Source: Eubacterium sp.
GTDB lineage: Bacteria; Bacillota; Clostridia; Lachnospirales; Lachnospiraceae
Direction of reading: 5' to 3'
Assembly (NCBI GenBank): GCA_017477505.1
Contig: JAFUVQ010000042.1
Span: 1 to 64,000 of the forward strand
Length of the DNA: 64,000 bases
Shown here: positions 1 through 10,140 of the stretch, piece by piece
Layout: every line of letters begins with the position of its first letter
Position numbering within the stretch: the stretch's first letter is position 1
The notes under the pieces: model-generated
What the model was told of the DNA's origin: nothing
The model's input: only the letters and a program-made list of their open reading frames with translations
The model's database searches: none
Translations under genes and position numbers: made by a program

Positions 1-5
1 CTCAT
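1..5 (-). CDS. Start of a gene leaving the window on the left (partial)
   Basis: Read on the minus strand, an ATG at 5-3 is preceded by a good ribosome binding site, GAAAGGAG at 20-13, with 7 bases between. Only the first codon and two further bases are inside the window, so nothing can be said about the product. It would be divergent from the methionine-rich operon at 171. Existence rests on the RBS/ATG pair alone. Confidence 0.4.
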
Positions 6-100
6 ATAGCAACTCCTTTCAGGTTGGATATTTGGTTGATTGGTCTCTTCTAAGTATACCATATTTTGTGAGGGGTTGCTTCTTTTTATGCAATAAAAAA

Positions 101-138
101 TGCCGTATTTATGCGGCTTGCGGCGTTTCGCAAACGCC
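101..138 (+). other. Two small adjacent hairpins in the leader of the Met-rich operon
   Basis: GCCG (102-105) can pair with CGGC (114-117). A tighter hairpin follows: GGCGTTT (122-128), loop CGC, AAACGCC (132-138). Both lie between the divergent start and the RBS at 156-164. Neither is followed by a T run on the plus strand, so they are not plus-strand terminators. Read on the minus strand the first is followed by ATTTTTT and could stop antisense reading. Function unknown. Confidence 0.35.
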
Positions 139-170
139 TAAATAATATTAAATTTAAGGAGGGGCAAAAA

Positions 171-746
171 ATGGGTAACACAAACAACTTTTTTGAGGGG
201 TTCAATGCAATGAACCAGATGGGCAAACAGATGATGAACAATATGATGGGCGGCATGGCTCAAATGGGACAGATGAACCAGAACCAAAACCAAATGCAGG
301 GCTTCTGCAACCCTTCATTTTCATGTATGCCTGATATGACTAAGGTTATGGCGAATATGCAGCAGATGCATCATAAGGCTGCTGATATGATGCCTAATAT
401 TCCACAGATCAACCAGATGGTCAACACGATGATTCAGATGAATCTCATGGCACTTAATATGATGCAGAAAACAATTGATCAGAATACACAGATGATGAAT
501 CAGTATATGGAGCTTATAGTTGAATTAAACAAGAAAGCTATGAGAGACGCTGATAATAAGTGTTGCTGTGAGTGCTCTGAAGAAGATGATAAAGAAGCCG
601 TAAATGCGGAAGAAGATGAAGCAGTATCAGAGGCGGCAGAGGTAGAAGAGGCAGCTGAACCAAAGAAAACAACAAGAGCAAAATCAACCGGTACAAAGAA
701 AACCGCAGCCAAAAAGACAGCTGTGAAAAAGACTTCTGAAGAATAG
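171..746 (+). CDS. Methionine-rich protein with Lys/Ala/Thr-rich basic tail (phasin-like architecture)
   Basis: No family recognised. The start at 171 is chosen because AAGGAGGGG lies at 156-164; the ATG at 111 in the same frame has no such site. The 191-residue product has three parts. Residues 1 to about 125 hold 28 methionines with many Asn and Gln, and the second half of this looks like one long amphipathic helix. A short cysteine cluster (CCCEC) follows. The tail is first acidic (Glu/Asp/Ala) and then basic (repeated KKT and AKK). Amphipathic helix plus basic AKKT-type tail recalls PHA-granule phasins of the PhaF kind, but this is analogy, not homology. It is first in a tight four-gene operon, and the next RBS overlaps its stop. 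Alternatives: metal-binding or oxidation-buffering protein, or condensate scaffold. Confidence 0.85.
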   Translation: MGNTNNFFEGFNAMNQMGKQMMNNMMGGMAQMGQMNQNQNQMQGFCNPSFSCMPDMTKVMANMQQMHHKAADMMPNIPQINQMVNTMIQMNLMALNMMQKTIDQNTQMMNQYMELIVELNKKAMRDADNKCCCECSEEDDKEAVNAEEDEAVSEAAEVEEAAEPKKTTRAKSTGTKKTAAKKTAVKKTSEE

Positions 747-756
747 GAGTTAATGT

Positions 757-2625
757 ATGGTTGAAACAAATAATGATCAATGTGTATGGAAATACATTAA
801 AAGCAGAAACACCCGGAAACAATCACAGCTATGCAATACTGCTTTGATTGATTGCACCAGAGAATACACTTATGGTCAGATGTTTGTGGAATGGGAGCAT
901 TATGCACGTGTTTTTTCCGCTCTTGGTATAACAGGTGAGAATAATTCACGTGTTGCTCTTGCAGGTACAATATCTGTTGAACCTTTATTCTCGTTTTATG
1001 GACTCAATATAACAGGTGCTACAGTTTCTATGTTCTCATATCCGGACTTTCTCCCTACAGGACAGTGGAAAACGATGGTTGAAAAGGAGAACATTACCGA
1101 TCTTATACTTTCGGATATAATGATAAGTCCGGAAACCTGGCCGGAGATAGAAAAGGCCGGAAAAACTCTGGGACTCAGGAATATTATATTATTGCATTCA
1201 CTGCTTGGCGGACCATGCGCCGGACCTGCTGAACTCATTTATAATGAGTATAATTATCACAGGCTCAGGAAGATTCCCGGTGTGGTTTATATGGGAGATC
1301 TTCTGAAACAGTATGCGTCAGTACCCATAACATACGGTATGAATGATCCTGATCACCTTGCAATGATAACACATACTTCGGGCTCTACAAAGGGTACAAG
1401 AAAGCCACTGCCATATACAGAAAAGTCGCTGAATATAACAGCAACAGATTTTGGAAATGGTTTTCATGATTTTTCTGATAATAAAGGAAAAGTTCAATAT
1501 CGTCTTGCACCTAGCTTTGATTTCAGTTCGTATCTTTGTATGGGCGGTATAATCAATGCGGATCTGGCAATAGGAGATACGGTCATCCTTACATTTTTCG
1601 GATTCCTTCACCCTAAGTTTATAAGAGCAGTGGAATACTATAAACTTGATGTCCTGTTTACATCAGGCTTTATGGTCGACAGCTGGCTTAAACGTGATGA
1701 CATTGATGAAGTGGATTTTTCATCACTTAAGCTTTTCAGCTGCGGCGGTTCCTACCTGCCTGTTGAAAAAGTCAAAAAATATAATGAATTTGCCGCTAAA
1801 CATGGCTTTGATAAAGGGATAAGCCGCGGTTATGGTATGTCTGAAGCCGGAGGGGCGCAGCTTTATGTGCCTCCCGGTAATCTAGAGGATATACTGGGAT
1901 ATCCGTCTTCAAATGAATCTATTATCATCAAGGATGAAAATGATAGTAAATATTATACTTCAAAAGACGGAGTCAGAACCGGAACCATGTATATTGCGTC
2001 AGATTCATTATGCAGTAATGAACTTGACGGTGAGGTTCTTTTTGAATACACCGTGATAAACGGAAAAAATTACATTTGTACAAATGATCAGGTACGTGTT
2101 AATCCAAATGGCAGCATATCTTATGCCGGTCGTCTCGATAAGTTCTTCGTAAATAATGACGGGGTTCGTTTTGAGAGTGGAATCGTGGAAAATGAGATGG
2201 ATAAACAACCGGGAATTGATAAATGTGCTGTTGTTCCTGTGTTGGATAAACGTATACATGACACTGTCCCGGTATTATATATAATTCCCGAGAATAAAGA
2301 CGGTGATGTTTGTACGGATGTATTAAATGCACTTACCAGAATATTTATAGAAGATGGGCTGGATTCCTCATCGAGTCTTCCATCACAGTTCATAATTGTA
2401 GACAATATTCCATGTAATTCTAACGGAAAGATAGATGTATTCAGAATTACCAGAGAACGTCTGAAAGGAACTGCTTATAATATCATACCAAAAAGAGAAA
2501 ACGGAAAACTGACAAAGATAAATGCAGAATTTTCAGATAAGACCAGCAGCATCATCGGTGGCACACTTCCTGAGGGAATGGGAGGAGGCTCCGCATTTAA
2601 TCTTTTTGAACTATTCAATAACTGA
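757..2625 (+). CDS. Acyl-adenylate-forming synthetase (ANL superfamily), stand-alone copy
   Basis: An AMP-forming acyl/aryl-acid activating enzyme by its motifs. The ATP-binding loop A3 reads HTSGSTKGTRK at residues 206-216, a variant of TSGTTGxPKG. A5 is GYGMSE (358-363). A7/A8 are present as TNDQVR and GRLDKFFVNNDG. A10 is NGKID with the expected catalytic lysine at K558. At 622 residues it is about 70-100 longer than a minimal family member. The C-terminus ends in a hydrophobic motif (SAFNLFELFNN) beyond the enzyme fold. It is clearly paralogous to residues about 330-940 of the fusion protein at 3270. RBS AGGAG at 745-749 overlaps the previous stop. The acid substrate and acceptor (CoA, carrier protein or amine) cannot be read from sequence. 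Confidence 0.88.
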   Translation: MVETNNDQCVWKYIKSRNTRKQSQLCNTALIDCTREYTYGQMFVEWEHYARVFSALGITGENNSRVALAGTISVEPLFSFYGLNITGATVSMFSYPDFLPTGQWKTMVEKENITDLILSDIMISPETWPEIEKAGKTLGLRNIILLHSLLGGPCAGPAELIYNEYNYHRLRKIPGVVYMGDLLKQYASVPITYGMNDPDHLAMITHTSGSTKGTRKPLPYTEKSLNITATDFGNGFHDFSDNKGKVQYRLAPSFDFSSYLCMGGIINADLAIGDTVILTFFGFLHPKFIRAVEYYKLDVLFTSGFMVDSWLKRDDIDEVDFSSLKLFSCGGSYLPVEKVKKYNEFAAKHGFDKGISRGYGMSEAGGAQLYVPPGNLEDILGYPSSNESIIIKDENDSKYYTSKDGVRTGTMYIASDSLCSNELDGEVLFEYTVINGKNYICTNDQVRVNPNGSISYAGRLDKFFVNNDGVRFESGIVENEMDKQPGIDKCAVVPVLDKRIHDTVPVLYIIPENKDGDVCTDVLNALTRIFIEDGLDSSSSLPSQFIIVDNIPCNSNGKIDVFRITRERLKGTAYNIIPKRENGKLTKINAEFSDKTSSIIGGTLPEGMGGGSAFNLFELFNN

Positions 2626-2640
2626 CAAGGAGATACTACT

Positions 2641-3249
2641 ATGTTTGATTTATTTAACAGCCAGATGAATCCTTTTATGTCTATGATGAATTCATCTGAC
2701 AATACTGAGAATAATAACAATATGAATGGAATGGATATGACAGGTTTTATGAACATGATGGGCGGAATGAATCCGATGAATTGCATGAATCCGATGCAGT
2801 TCATGAACCCAATGAATTGCATGAATCCGATGCAGTTCATGAATATGAATAACGGCATGAACATGAACAATGGCATGGATATGAATAACTGCATGAATAT
2901 GAACAATGGCATGGATATGATGAATCCGATGCAATTAATGTTTTCTACTTTCATGATGCAGATGCAGATGATGCAGATGATGCAGAATATGTGTATGGTA
3001 CCGCTTCAGTTTATGCAGATGATGCAGAATAGTATGGACTCCTCAGACGAGAATTCAAACGAGAATTCAGATGTTGGGAAAATTGAAAACAATTCAAATC
3101 AGAACCAGGCAGGCTTCAAACTCGGTAATTTCTCGATTCCTCCTGAGATGATATCAAAACTAATGCAGATTGATATGTCGCCGGAAAACCTTAGCAAATT
3201 ACAGAAGTTTCTGGACTTTGTGTTTACTTTTGTACCTGAAAAAAAGTAA
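2641..3249 (+). CDS. Extremely methionine-rich low-complexity protein with internal repeats
   Basis: No family recognised. Of 202 residues 48 are methionine, with Asn, Gln, Pro and Phe filling most of the rest. It opens with MFDLFNSQMNPFMSMM, continues as tandem NPMNCMNPMQFM and NMNNGM units, then a MQM/MMQ stretch. It ends in a more ordinary segment of about 60 residues (Ser/Asp/Asn linker, then a helix-like SPENLSKLQKFLDFVF). RBS AAGGAG lies at 2626-2632. It sits 15 bases after one synthetase and 20 before the next. The NPFM and F-x-L-F motifs recur in the synthetase C-termini, which suggests the proteins assemble together (inference). It shares Met-richness but not layout with the protein at 171. 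Confidence 0.85.
   Translation: MFDLFNSQMNPFMSMMNSSDNTENNNNMNGMDMTGFMNMMGGMNPMNCMNPMQFMNPMNCMNPMQFMNMNNGMNMNNGMDMNNCMNMNNGMDMMNPMQLMFSTFMMQMQMMQMMQNMCMVPLQFMQMMQNSMDSSDENSNENSDVGKIENNSNQNQAGFKLGNFSIPPEMISKLMQIDMSPENLSKLQKFLDFVFTFVPEKK
2767..2910 (+). repeat. In-frame tandem repeats inside the Met-rich gene
   Basis: Two near-identical 36-base units occupy 2767-2802 and 2803-2838, each encoding MNPMNCMNPMQF. They are followed by four 18-base units at 2839-2910 with the pattern ATGAAY-ATGAAYAAYGGC, encoding M(N/D)MNN(G/C). The units preserve frame, so copy-number change would lengthen or shorten the protein without frameshift. Confidence 0.85.
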
Positions 3250-3269
3250 TAGCAATGGGGGATTATTAA

Positions 3270-6200
3270 ATGGCCAAGAAAAAGGACAGTATAGACAAAA
3301 AGATTAAAAGAGAACTTACCAGAGCCATGCTTGAACGTACACAGAGCATGGATATGAAGAAAATGATGAAAGTGTTCGGCTCAGCTGAACCTGTAACATA
3401 TGATGATGTAAAAGAGACTCTCAATGTTGCATATGTAAACAGAGATGAAGTGGCTCTTGCCATGGATATCTTTGAACCCGTTGTTGAAGATGGAACGGAA
3501 CTGCCTGTAATAGTAATACTTCATGGTGGCGGTCTTTTTATGGGTGACCGCGGACTGGAGCGACCATACAGCCGCCTTCTGGCACATAAGGGTTATCTTG
3601 TTTTTTCACTTGAGTACAGGCTTGCACCAAGGGCTACCATAGGCGAACAGCTGGATGATGTATGCGCAGGTATGGATCATGTCGGTCGTATGCTGGTTAA
3701 CTATGATGTTGATTTTGGTCGAATGTTCCTGGTGGCTGACAGTGCGGGAGCATATCTGGCAGCATATGTCGCAGCAATGCATGAATCTGAAAAACTCTGC
3801 AATGCTATAGGTTACAAACCTTCCAAGATGATTTATGCCGCTGTAGGCTTCCTTAGTGGAATGTTCTATACCAACAAAACTCTGCAGGATCAGATATACG
3901 GAGATAAGAGGGGTGACGAAAAATTCTTAAAATATATGAATATTGAGAATCCTGAGATCGTAAATAACTTACCTCCTGCATTCATGATGACAAGCTGCGG
4001 CGATACATTTAACAACTATTCGATAAAGTTTAACAAGGTTCTTAAGACTGCCGGAAAAACTTCAAAGCTTGTATATTTCGGTAATGAGGAGCTTCAGCAT
4101 GTCTTTCCTATTACAAATCCCGAGCATCCAAAGAGTATCGAGGGAACCGACAAGATGCTTGCCTGGTTTGAGGAACAGGCAACAATGAGATGTGAAAAGA
4201 GACAGCCGGATTCAGATTTGGCCAGGAAGAAAAAAGCTCTTAAAAAACGTATTGAAGATGGCAGTATAGCCAATCAGAAAGTATGGTCAGATCTTAAGGA
4301 GCAGGTGCTGGTTGATCCCGATAATGCGAATAAGATCGCCATTTATGATTGTACCCGTAGATATACATACGGAGAGATGTTCAATGAGTGGGACAGATAT
4401 GCAAAAGTATTCTCGGCATTGGGAATCACATCGGAAAACGGATCAAGAGTTGCTCTTGCAGGTACCATTACTGCTGAACCTCTCTTTGCGCTTTATGCTC
4501 TGAATATGACCGGAGCCGAAGTATCTCTCTTTTCATATCCTGATTTTCTTCCGAATGGTTTATGGAGGGATATGCTGGAGAAGGAGAATATAACAGATCT
4601 TATCATTTCCGATATTATGGTTACATCTGAAATGTGGGAGAAGATAAAGGCTGCTAAGGATGAATTATCCATAAGAAATGTCATTTTAATCCATTCACTT
4701 ATGGGCGGCCCGACAGTAGGTCCGGCTGAGCTGGTATACAATGAATTTAATTATCATAGTCTGAGAAGAAAACCGGACACGTTATTCATGAACGATCTTC
4801 TCGATAAATATAAAAATGAAGAGATAAAGTATGATGAGTCGGATGGCAGCAGACTTGCCTTCATAACACATACTTCGGGAACTACAAAGGGAACACGTAA
4901 AATGCTTCCATTTACTGATAAAGTATTCAATACTGCGGTAGAAGCGATTCCTGATGGTTACCGTGCATTTGTTCCGGCTAAAGATGCTGAAAAGCAGCTT
5001 ACAACTCTCCTGGTATTTGACTTCAGTTCCATCATGGCGCTGAGCGGAATGGTTCACAGAAATCTTTTATCAGGTGATATTATAGTAATGACATTCTTTG
5101 GATTCATGCATCCGAAGTTTGTTCGTGCAATTGATTATTATAATGTCAGTCTGATAACGCTGACCGGATTTATGATTGATAAATGGCTTGATTCTCCTTT
5201 TGCACAGGATCTTGACTTTTCATCACTCAGATCGGTGGGAATTACCGGAGGATATATTTCACCGAGTAAAATGTCTCAGTATAAAGAGTTTTTCACTTCG
5301 CATGGTTATAAATACGATTTTATAACAGGTTATGGAATGTCTGAGACCGGAGGAAAGATTCTCTTTAATACCTTTAGTTCAAAAGATGAGACGGAGACTG
5401 CCGATATACTTGGGTATGTAAAGGATATGGAAGGGGCTCTCATTAAAGATGATAATGACGGTAAATTCTATAAGCTCGATGACGGTCCTCGTACCGGCGT
5501 GCTTTATGTGACCTCCGATAATCGACCTGACAATAAGATTGACGGAAAAGTGATCTTCGAATATACGAATGTAGACGGAAAAGATTATGTATGTACGAAT
5601 GATCTTGTACGTATAAATGAAGATATGAGCATTTCTTATGCCGGAAGGAAAGATAATTACTTTGTAAATAACGAAGGGAAAAAATTTGAAGCGGGTGTCG
5701 TTGAAGCGGGTATTGCTTCATATCCGGAGATAAAGGAATGTGCAGTTGCGCCTGTGATGGAAAAGAGAATTCACGATACTGTACCTGTACTTTACGTGGT
5801 TCCTGCAGAAGAAAATGCTAAAACTCCTGAATTAATACGTAAGCTTTTGGTGGATGCATATATAAGCGAAAAGAAGATTCCGTCTGATAATATACCTACT
5901 CAGTTCATAATAGTGGATATAATTCCGTTGAATGCAAATGGTAAGATTGATATCTACAGACTTACCAGAGAAAGACTGGATGGTGATGCATATAACATTG
6001 AAGCAGTTTATGACGGAAAAAAACTGGTTGATATTAATATTAAGCATGTAACCAAAGTAAACAGCATGACCGCAGGTACGCTGCCTCATGGCATGGAAAA
6101 TAATTCTGCATATAATGCGTTTGATTTCTTTACTGCAGCATCATCTCAAAGTCCGACGCAATCGGGAGGATTCTTTGATATATCCAAATTTAATCCGTTT

Positions 6201-6362
6201 ATGCCCTGGAAGATGTTCATGCCGGATATGCCGGATATTAAGAGTAAGATCAAGATGCCGCAGGTACCTGAAAATGTTACAAAGGCTGTCCTGAAATATG
6301 GTAACAGGATCACAAGCCTTCCAAACGGAAGAAAACATATTACACATGATTTTGAAGAATAA
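3270..6362 (+). CDS. Fusion: alpha/beta-hydrolase (HSL-type esterase) + acyl-adenylate-forming synthetase + hydrophobic tail
   Basis: A 1030-residue fusion. Residues 1 to about 310 are an alpha/beta-hydrolase of the hormone-sensitive-lipase/acetyl-esterase kind: oxyanion motif HGGG at 85-88, nucleophile motif DSAG at 157-160 (Ser158), and a candidate catalytic His near 275 (LQHVFP). Residues about 330-940 are an adenylation enzyme with HTSGTTKGTRK from H534, GYGMSETGG and NGKID (Lys892). It is very similar along its length to the neighbouring gene at 757, so one arose by duplication. The last 70 residues form an extra tail rich in Phe, Met and Pro (FNPFMPWKMFMPDMPD), then a basic end. RBS GGGGG precedes the ATG by about 10 bases. 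Hydrolase plus activating enzyme in one chain suggests acyl release and re-activation, or editing of mis-activated acid. Substrate unknown. Confidence 0.88.
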   Translation: MAKKKDSIDKKIKRELTRAMLERTQSMDMKKMMKVFGSAEPVTYDDVKETLNVAYVNRDEVALAMDIFEPVVEDGTELPVIVILHGGGLFMGDRGLERPYSRLLAHKGYLVFSLEYRLAPRATIGEQLDDVCAGMDHVGRMLVNYDVDFGRMFLVADSAGAYLAAYVAAMHESEKLCNAIGYKPSKMIYAAVGFLSGMFYTNKTLQDQIYGDKRGDEKFLKYMNIENPEIVNNLPPAFMMTSCGDTFNNYSIKFNKVLKTAGKTSKLVYFGNEELQHVFPITNPEHPKSIEGTDKMLAWFEEQATMRCEKRQPDSDLARKKKALKKRIEDGSIANQKVWSDLKEQVLVDPDNANKIAIYDCTRRYTYGEMFNEWDRYAKVFSALGITSENGSRVALAGTITAEPLFALYALNMTGAEVSLFSYPDFLPNGLWRDMLEKENITDLIISDIMVTSEMWEKIKAAKDELSIRNVILIHSLMGGPTVGPAELVYNEFNYHSLRRKPDTLFMNDLLDKYKNEEIKYDESDGSRLAFITHTSGTTKGTRKMLPFTDKVFNTAVEAIPDGYRAFVPAKDAEKQLTTLLVFDFSSIMALSGMVHRNLLSGDIIVMTFFGFMHPKFVRAIDYYNVSLITLTGFMIDKWLDSPFAQDLDFSSLRSVGITGGYISPSKMSQYKEFFTSHGYKYDFITGYGMSETGGKILFNTFSSKDETETADILGYVKDMEGALIKDDNDGKFYKLDDGPRTGVLYVTSDNRPDNKIDGKVIFEYTNVDGKDYVCTNDLVRINEDMSISYAGRKDNYFVNNEGKKFEAGVVEAGIASYPEIKECAVAPVMEKRIHDTVPVLYVVPAEENAKTPELIRKLLVDAYISEKKIPSDNIPTQFIIVDIIPLNANGKIDIYRLTRERLDGDAYNIEAVYDGKKLVDINIKHVTKVNSMTAGTLPHGMENNSAYNAFDFFTAASSQSPTQSGGFFDISKFNPFMPWKMFMPDMPDIKSKIKMPQVPENVTKAVLKYGNRITSLPNGRKHITHDFEE

Positions 6363-8775: not shown

Positions 8776-10140
8776 TTGGGTTTATTTGAATTATTTCTTT
8801 TATCAATAGGTCTTGCGATGGATGCTTTTGCAGTATCCATCTGCAAAGGCCTGGCTGTAAAAAAAATAACTGCTAAAGAATATCTTCTCTGTGGAATCTG
8901 GTTCGGTACATTTCAGGGATTAATGCCACTCATCGGATATTTTGTAGGCTCACGTTTTGAAAGATTTATCAATATGGTGGCCCCGTGGGTGGCTTTTATA
9001 CTGCTCAGCCTTATCGGCGGAAATATGATCAAGGAAGCGTTTTCACCTCCTGAAGAAGTAAAGCCGGAGTTCGATGTAAAAACCATGTTCATGATGGCAG
9101 TAGCAACCAGTATTGATGCCCTTGCCGTTGGTATCACATTTGTTGCGGTACCTGTTAAGGTGCTTCCATCCGGAGCTGTAAGCAACGTTCTGCTTGCAGT
9201 ATTAATGATAGGTATTATTACCTGTATTATTTCAATGATAGGAGTAAAAATCGGACATATTTTCGGAATCCGTTATAAATCGGGTTCTGAGATCATGGGT
9301 GGAACGATACTGATATTCATTGGACTCAGATCCCTTATCACACACCTTGATAAATCCAAAGCTTTATCCGATACGGATATCATTTTCGGAATGCTGATAC
9401 CTCTGATCGGAACACTGGTAGGTTCGGCTATTGTATATGCAAAGAAGGTAAAGCTTTCTGAAAGTGTTAAAAGGATACTTTTTGGACTTAGTTCAGGTAT
9501 AATGGTTTCAATTGCAGTCTGGGGAATGATAGAACCGGCTGTATCAGGTCTGAAGGAAATCTTTAAATACGGAATAATCCCTGTTGCCGCATGCTTCTGT
9601 GGCGGCGTTTTGTTCCAGTATATACTTGATAATGTGGTCCCGCATACTCATGCATATTCAAATATAACTGAAGGACCTAAGAATAAGCTGGGTTCGGAAA
9701 TCAGGGTGATGCTTACAGAAGTCATCCATCATATTCCCGAAGGAATTGCAATCGGCGCAGTCTATGCAGGTCATTTCCTTAAAATAGAATGGATATCGGC
9801 TTCAATGGCTTTGGTTCTGGCAATAGCAATAGCAGTTCAGAATATCCCGGAAGCGCTCTTTGTTTCAATGCCGTTAAGAGAGACCGGGACAAATACAGGT
9901 AAATCATTCTTCCTTGGTATTATATCAGGGGTTCCTATACCGCTTTTTGGAATAATAACTGTTATAGTTTCTTTACTCTTTACGAACGTTCTGCCATATG
10001 TTATGGCGCTTGCGGGCGGTGCACTCATATACACCACTATAGAAGAAATACCACTTCTCGGTTCAAAGGAAGATAATGACAAAGGGGTTCTTTCTGTTGT
10101 AGCCGGCTTTGTGATAGTAATGCTTATGATTTATCTTTGA
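8776..10140 (+). CDS. MntP-type Mn2+ exporter fused to a ZIP-family metal transporter
   Basis: A 454-residue membrane protein with two transporter families in one chain. Residues 1 to about 190 match MntP (YebN): the signature MDAFAVSICKG is near residue 15 and the internal-repeat counterpart TSIDALAVGITF follows, within six hydrophobic segments. From about 203 to the end it is a ZIP transporter. Its metal-site motifs are HHIPEG at 318-323 in TM4 and QNIPEA at 355-360 in TM5, followed by MPLR; the usual HNIPEG is altered to Q...A. The start is TTG with AGGAG at 8764-8768 overlapping the lemA stop. Position under the yybP-ykoY riboswitch supports manganese as substrate. MntP exports and bacterial ZIPs usually import, so the direction of the fused protein is open. 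Confidence 0.88.
   Translation: MGLFELFLLSIGLAMDAFAVSICKGLAVKKITAKEYLLCGIWFGTFQGLMPLIGYFVGSRFERFINMVAPWVAFILLSLIGGNMIKEAFSPPEEVKPEFDVKTMFMMAVATSIDALAVGITFVAVPVKVLPSGAVSNVLLAVLMIGIITCIISMIGVKIGHIFGIRYKSGSEIMGGTILIFIGLRSLITHLDKSKALSDTDIIFGMLIPLIGTLVGSAIVYAKKVKLSESVKRILFGLSSGIMVSIAVWGMIEPAVSGLKEIFKYGIIPVAACFCGGVLFQYILDNVVPHTHAYSNITEGPKNKLGSEIRVMLTEVIHHIPEGIAIGAVYAGHFLKIEWISASMALVLAIAIAVQNIPEALFVSMPLRETGTNTGKSFFLGIISGVPIPLFGIITVIVSLLFTNVLPYVMALAGGALIYTTIEEIPLLGSKEDNDKGVLSVVAGFVIVMLMIYL

Follow-up and report, generated by a model that had tools for sequence, protein, structure and literature searches.

A Lachnospiraceae operon of adenylate-forming enzymes, a fused esterase and methionine-rich tails as a candidate scaffolded enzyme assembly

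The window analysed here is a stretch of 64,000 nucleotides, namely bases 1-64000 of contig C3. The contig belongs to a Lachnospiraceae genome of 3.22 Mb in 76 contigs (the source genome, G000). Four genes near its start, P0001, P0002, P0003 and P0004, lie on the same strand with intergenic gaps of 10, 15 and 20 bp and form an operon of Met-rich proteins and adenylate-forming enzymes (Table 1). An initial annotation had described them as four tightly spaced genes, two for Met-rich proteins and two for adenylating enzymes, that may build a granule or condensate. The coordinates, strand and spacing were confirmed, but the four-gene picture is in part the artefact of an insertion, and two components of the system, a third adenylating enzyme (A1) and an esterase, had been missed.

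Table 1. Features of the operon and of the neighbouring insertion (positions in the window unless a contig is named)
Feature	Position	Strand	Description
P0001	171..746	+	Met-rich, helical protein with Lys-rich end, 191 aa; severed C-terminal tail of A1
P0002	757..2625	+	adenylate-forming enzyme A2, 622 aa; AMP-binding E 1.4e-22, with motifs
P0003	2641..3249	+	Met/Asn-rich protein, 202 aa; conserved C-terminal segment of ~40 residues
Tandem 18-bp units in P0003	2767..2920	+	hexapeptide repeats
P0004	3270..6362	+	hydrolase-adenylation fusion A3, 1030 aa
HSL-type alpha/beta-hydrolase domain of A3	3510..4088	+	PF07859, residues 81-273, E 9.8e-18; HGGG, ADSAG, Asp, His
Adenylation domain of A3	4263..6137	+	family profile match, residues 332-956
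C-terminal tail of A3	6057..6359	+	residues 930-1030, predicted disordered
C-terminal tag HDFEE of A3	6345..6359	+	residues 1026-1030
Shine-Dalgarno AAGGAGGGG before tail ATG	156..164	+	same place inside fused gene of L030
End of multi-copy insertion element; contig edge	1..140	.	genome-wide copies at 99-100%
13-bp target-site duplication AATAATATTAAAT	141..153	.	second copy at G000:C34:139-151
A1 enzyme part	G000:C34:137-2047	-	separate contig of source genome

The complete unit, in the order A1 with its tail, A2, Met-rich protein and hydrolase-A3, is intact in three relatives, L030 (RUG14112), L031 (NE2001) and L032 (Butyrivibrio sp. LC3010). In all three, the P0001-type sequence is the C-terminal part of A1, which by longest frame has 816, 848 and 930 aa, respectively. 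In a fourth relative, L033 (UBA1764), there are pieces of A1 around a run of N, a 65-aa frame and the hydrolase-A3, after which comes a Met-rich protein of 283 aa. The initial annotation had proposed a check of the gene order in relatives; wherever the full unit is present, the Met-rich sequences remain beside the synthetases. The A1 enzyme part of the source genome reads toward the first base of contig C34 and ends at HNNIK, and its in-frame continuation is present in the window immediately 5' of P0001. The two contig edges both consist of insertion-element ends. A 13-bp direct repeat flanks the break, and a shared word as long occurred in 2 of 2000 shuffles. Window bases 1-142 have seven matches in the source genome, themselves included, at 99-100% identity; the four further copies that were fetched lie at contig ends, and two more start at contig base 1 and 62. 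For C34:1-135 there are three further copies at 100% (two from contig base 1), one at 86% and short partial ones. The insertion element (window 1-153; L034 1-151) has imperfect inverted ends and is seen at many contig edges of the source genome. Contigs C34 and C3 thus appear to be joined through one such element, and on the sequence P0001 is the tail of A1 cut off by it. P0001 as a native free-standing gene was therefore rejected. In effect, the insertion in the source strain turned a short, tail-only form of A1 into a separate gene.

The methionine counts reported earlier, 28 of 191 residues in P0001 (14.7%) and 48 of 202 in P0003 (23.8%), were confirmed. The background is 3.1% Met in frames of the window that reach 150 aa, with P0001 and P0003 included, and the binomial tails are 1e-11 and 3e-28, respectively. 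The two proteins have the highest Met fractions among 57 window frames, a comparison in which P0001 was counted from an upstream ATG. The ratios of nonsynonymous to synonymous substitution rates (dN/dS) against L030 were 0.14 for P0001 and 0.08 for P0003, with values of 0.08-0.10 for the enzymes, the synonymous rate being high or saturated in several comparisons. In the same pair of loci, 25 of 26 aligned Met sites are conserved in P0001 and 40 of 47 in P0003, at an identity of 66% and 69% for all other residues. In the comparison with L031, 43 of 47 Met sites of P0003 are conserved and its remaining residues are 55% identical. Gap placement may favour shared Met in these alignments. By these substitution patterns, P0001 and P0003 are real, constrained proteins under purifying selection.

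A2 and A3 (E 6.8e-25) both match the AMP-binding profile PF00501. The adenylation motifs for ATP, hinge and A10 lysine form invariant columns in a 16-sequence alignment, and the earlier statement that the ATP and lysine motifs are intact was borne out, the A10 lysine being invariant in the 16 aligned relatives. From these motifs, P0002, P0004 and their relatives belong to the adenylate-forming (ANL) enzymes. The 1030-aa P0004 had been regarded as simply an adenylating enzyme; it is instead a hydrolase-adenylation fusion, with its AMP-binding match at residues 353-748. Its N-terminal domain belongs, by profile and motifs, to the hormone-sensitive-lipase (HSL)-type alpha/beta hydrolases. The best solved relative is esterase B (4n5h, E 2.3e-22), and all 15 aligned hydrolase sequences carry the motifs HGG(G/A), [AG][DE]SAG, Asp and His, the oxyanion motif reading HGGM in one of them (the L092 fusion) and HGGA in two. 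The domain shares HGGG and [AG][DE]SAG with HSL-type esterases but is fused to, or lies beside, an adenylating enzyme. The best solved relatives of the adenylation profile are 4-coumarate-CoA ligase (4CL) and D-alanyl carrier protein ligase. The nearest folds of A3, from whole-model alignments with a root-mean-square deviation near 9, were aryl-acid adenylating enzymes and 4-coumarate-CoA ligases. Fold and catalytic motifs are thus shared with CahJ, EntE, 4CL and DltA, although at 14-20% identity among the 50 fold matches listed and with tails and an esterase fusion here. Amino-acid-activating adenylation domains usually have FDxS; A2 and A3 carry FDFSS at that alignment position.

The sequence after the adenylation domain reaches up to 370 residues and varies widely in makeup between family members. 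The A1 tail is Met/Asn-rich and then Lys/Thr/Ala-rich, and the tails of G019, G820a and G847 are Met/Pro-rich and then Lys/Ala-rich. The enzyme of the second locus of LC3010 (LC3010b) carries GMGMPGMG and MPQGGMGCANN repeats, that of G830 carries GYGQNP eight times, and the tails of G781 and G813a begin with Lys/Ala/Pro and contain a Gln/Tyr-rich stretch; a Q-rich coil is among the tail types of the family. About 95 residues follow the adenylation domain in A3 and about 21 in A2, and seven AMP-binding frames of the source genome outside the enzyme family are 561-601 aa long without room for a tail. The tail of A3 falls below 50 in predicted local distance difference test (pLDDT) at residues 930-1000 and 1002-1030 of a model with a mean of 79.8. 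In P0001, the AKKT-like tail noted earlier is present, and a helix is predicted at residues 77-130. The model, built from four sequences, has a mean pLDDT of 55.7, however, and reaches usable confidence only at residues ~81-120 (block means 76-86). The Lys-rich end of the L031 A1 resembles the histone H1-like family PF07382 at E 4e-6, which is below the cut-off. Two further sequences were noted. L092 5884-9801 encodes a bacterial hydrolase-adenylation fusion whose tail has GYGQNPMQ-type repeats, reminiscent of eukaryotic FUS-like low-complexity domains. The G457 locus is headed by a protein of 134 aa (L058 6594-6998) that looks helical, ends Lys/Ala/Pro-rich and gives no weighty Pfam match.

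The end of A3 carries an acidic-aromatic tag, sought as the pattern [Y/F/H/D], [Y/F], E, [D/E/Q] within the last eight residues. It was found in 8 of 23 family enzymes, namely seven hydrolase-adenylation fusions and the LC3010b enzyme. Among 168 other proteins of at least 150 aa in 16 sequences it occurred once, in the hydrolase that G457 encodes as a protein of its own. The contrast is only descriptive because the pattern was drawn from the same sequences. It suggests that each locus has a single acidic-aromatic peptide for recruitment, in most cases carried by the hydrolase. An 814-aa hydrolase-adenylation fusion (L093 7678-10122) has lost the ATP motif and kept the tag.

A Shine-Dalgarno sequence precedes the ATG of the A1 tail (Table 1), and in fused genes the first Met of the tail likewise follows a Shine-Dalgarno-like sequence. 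The tail ATGs of nine fused genes were picked by homology and by look after sequence inspection, independently of pairing strength; six more genes of the family, for which no tail ATG had been picked, entered the scan only as background. The tail ATG had the best anti-Shine-Dalgarno pairing of all internal in-frame ATGs in six of the nine genes (L030, L031, G019, G468, G820a and G820b), and in L032 and LC3010b the strongest internal site likewise lies inside the tail. Since the tail ATG comes out best in six of nine, a free tail is probably also produced, and the predicted internal initiation likely gives this free tail beside full-length A1.

To place the operon among relatives, a family profile was built from 16 adenylation domains. 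A search of 397 genomes of the taxonomic family and 392 of the order found the enzyme family only in the source genome; these absences are soft because at most two to three candidates per genome were scored among the matches listed. Eight other genomes in one of these scans were matched by the hydrolase only. Within the genus of the source genome, 6 of 61 genomes match P0004, the source genome included, and in the genus of LC3010, 6 of 79 match the profile, LC3010 included. Altogether, the family has members in 13 genomes (UBA1764 included) at 16 loci. The gene cluster is rare and present in some Lachnospiraceae. An HSL-type hydrolase is fused or adjoining in 11 of the 16 loci; in G468 the gene is cut by a contig end. 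In a tree, the A1, A2 and A3 groups share one species order with strong support, which fits a three-enzyme unit inherited together. Three other settings for the operon were rejected: anti-phage defence, as the four operon proteins have no PADLOC match; viral carriage, as 19 pattern stretches in viral contigs included no relatives; and plasmid carriage, as 118 plasmid records gave generic adenylation domains at 20.6-26.4% identity among the 20 matches listed.

Several functions could be considered for such a unit. The enzymes may serve a natural-product pathway, in which the adenylating enzymes and hydrolases would provide, modify or set free acyl groups used to make peptides or amides, with tails and tag acting in docking instead of in condensate formation. 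Nonribosomal peptide synthetase (NRPS) genes adjoin 5 of the 16 loci (G457, G781, G813 twice and G830), the nearest folds of A3 include aryl-acid adenylating enzymes that act in siderophore and related pathways, and the distribution over the two genera is patchy. However, no condensation or carrier domain was found in the stretch read beside the window operon and its three intact relatives, so that the four A1-A2-Met-rich-A3 loci lack an NRPS neighbour there, and no carrier protein was seen in the operon itself. The genomes with the four-gene unit have few condensation domains (one in the source genome, one in NE2001, two in RUG14112 and three in LC3010). The genome-wide signal is also weak: among 22 genomes tested, at least one condensation domain was found in 12 of 12 carriers but also in 6 of 10 non-carriers. 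The initial annotation had itself named a match to a secondary-metabolite pathway as a refutation; such a setting is found at the five related loci but was not seen next to loci of the present operon type. We regard this explanation as unlikely, though one to be taken seriously. Attachment to the cell membrane, brought about by amphipathic helices in the tails and at the A3 N-terminus with no separate body formed, seems improbable. The best 18-residue hydrophobic moments of P0001, P0003 and the A3 ends (0.44-0.51) exceed the window 95th percentile of 0.43, but the comparison is biased, since the best moment of each scan is set against single stretches, and all values stay below the 99th percentile of 0.52. 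Membrane attachment would also leave the repeat-rich and Lys-rich tails unexplained.

We considered it quite improbable that the system is a polyester or lipid inclusion, on which the tails would form a phasin-like coat while the hydrolase mobilises the store and the adenylating enzymes re-activate the acids. The helices with Lys-rich ends do resemble PhaF, and an acyl-CoA synthetase is placed on Pseudomonas polyhydroxyalkanoate (PHA) granules in the available part of PMC5658603. Phasin_2 matched two tails (E 0.056 and 0.081) and PhaP_Bmeg one (0.18), but all of these matches, in 3 of 10 tails of relatives, are below the cut-off, and neither P0001 nor P0003 matched a phasin family. PhaC_N (PF07167) had no match in the source genome while it matched the Caulobacter control; other polymerases were not sought. 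TIGR01836 exceeded its cut-off in none of 12 carriers, a cut-off that the Caulobacter control fails too, and the one weak match, in G019, scored 32 bits where the cut-off is 365. Within the limits of these two models no PHA synthase was found in the source genome or the 12 carriers, and a PHA granule was rejected. The comparison with phasins drawn in the initial annotation is therefore an analogy only. Finally, the Met-rich proteins, with 15-24% Met, could be chemical buffers for oxidant scavenging, methionine storage or copper binding that merely share the operon. This is very improbable, as in relatives one of the two forms a single chain with an enzyme, other tails of the family are rich not in Met but in Gln/Tyr, Gly/Gln or Lys/Ala, and the conserved unit contains no metal or oxidative-stress gene.

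Some observations on neighbouring and related loci were made in passing. The source genome encodes a stand-alone condensation-domain protein (G000:C41:26513-27880, a 479-aa frame), and frames of similar size occur in several tested genomes. The Butyrivibrio-type NRPS locus of G781 includes an APH-type kinase with a fused STAS domain, a MATE transporter with a fused HATPase_c_2 domain and a beta-lactamase-family protein (L090 1379-2626, 4942-6678 and 10015-11796), and the G813 locus (L091) resembles it by sequence. Downstream in the window, bases 8776-10140 encode a protein of 454 aa in which a manganese efflux pump (Mntp, E 7e-42) is joined to a ZIP zinc-transporter domain (E 7.9e-11).

The explanation we favour, with a confidence somewhat short of even, is a scaffolded and perhaps condensate-like assembly of esterase and acyl-activating enzymes with free and fused tails. 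Its parts would be A1 with a fused tail, A2 with a separate Met-rich partner, and A3 with a fused esterase and a disordered, tagged tail. The tails would serve as the scaffold, with their Met/Asn stretches and amphipathic helices self-associating or joining a hydrophobic phase. A tether to DNA or some other polyanion may be provided by the Lys-rich end. The internal ribosome-binding site of the A1 gene would yield the free tail in addition to the full-length enzyme, and because of this the scaffold could exceed the enzyme in number. Inside the assembly, a carboxylic acid released by the esterase would be caught and activated by the adenylating enzymes before it escapes. In favour of this explanation are the gene order kept in three relatives, the purifying selection on both Met-rich proteins, the differing low-complexity tails of the family, the pairing of the tail ATGs, the hydrolase at 11 of the 16 loci, the retained catalytic residues, the tag and the precedents named below. 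Gene anatomy, motifs, conservation, selection and tag can be read from the sequences and the internal starts are predicted, whereas self-association, polyanion binding, the coupling of both reactions, the substrates and the product are what we infer here. The Met-rich scaffold proposed in the initial annotation has survived, because the Met-rich sequences are conserved and under purifying selection and low-complexity tails recur in divergent members of the family, while condensation goes a conjectural step further.

A number of observations weigh against such an assembly. A2 has no long tail. Compared with L031, P0001 keeps Met at only 15 of 21 positions, with other residues 55% identical. The hydrolase is absent in 4 of the 16 loci (G019, G820b, G781 and G813a), NRPS genes adjoin five loci as given above, and the fusion of G813b, which is outside the 16-sequence alignment, has a degenerate adenylation domain. 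As to the internal start, the tail ATG takes rank 2 in G847, rank 8 in L032 and rank 15 in LC3010b; the nine genes are not independent, G019, G468, G820a and G847 being closely related; and codons for K-G and K-E-G can by themselves mimic a Shine-Dalgarno site. A more specific version of the scaffolded assembly, a new kind of bacterial metabolic condensate in an anaerobe, in which Met-rich tails, fused and (by the internal start) free, hold several adenylating enzymes and an esterase, possibly tuned by methionine oxidation when oxygen is met, and the acidic-aromatic tag recruits the hydrolase, appears doubtful to us at present.

Among the entries listed by literature searches, none described an adenylating enzyme that is fused to an esterase, has Met-rich partners and bears a conserved C-terminal tag. 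Three known systems are nonetheless instructive for comparison. The short form of CcmM, CcmM35, arises from an internal start. CcmM of beta-carboxysomes occurs as a long and a short isoform (CcmM58 and CcmM35; PMC11973430, in part), and the short form (M35) makes condensates with Rubisco (PMC9312465, in part). As proposed for A1, one gene thus gives a form with an enzyme-like domain and a tail-only scaffold form. The likeness is one of working mode alone, with no sequence relation claimed, and differs in that the short form here is predicted and there is no shell. The Met-rich domain of Pbp1 / ataxin-2 is likewise a Met-rich, aromatic-poor low-complexity stretch, and Pbp1 droplets are melted by oxidation according to the portion available of PMC8394241; Pbp1 is, however, a eukaryotic RNA-binding protein with oxidation-sensitive assembly, whereas assembly is only proposed for the present proteins. 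On Pseudomonas PHA granules, the available part of PMC5658603 places ACS1, a depolymerase and phasins together. These granule proteins (PhaF/PhaI, PhaZ and ACS1) resemble the present unit in bringing together an acyl-activating enzyme, an esterase-type hydrolase and a helical segment whose end is Lys/Ala-rich and histone-like. The operon differs from them in having no phasin match over the cut-off, no PHA synthase found, enzyme-fused tails and Met/Asn-rich stretches.

If a scaffolded assembly is indeed formed, this operon would be a compact bacterial case of metabolic enzymes bearing their own low-complexity scaffold. The natural swaps of Met/Asn, GYGQNP, Gln-rich and Lys/Ala/Pro tails around one enzyme family would then be a ready comparison set for the requirements of such tails, and the system would offer a way into whether methionine oxidation governs assembly in an anaerobe.

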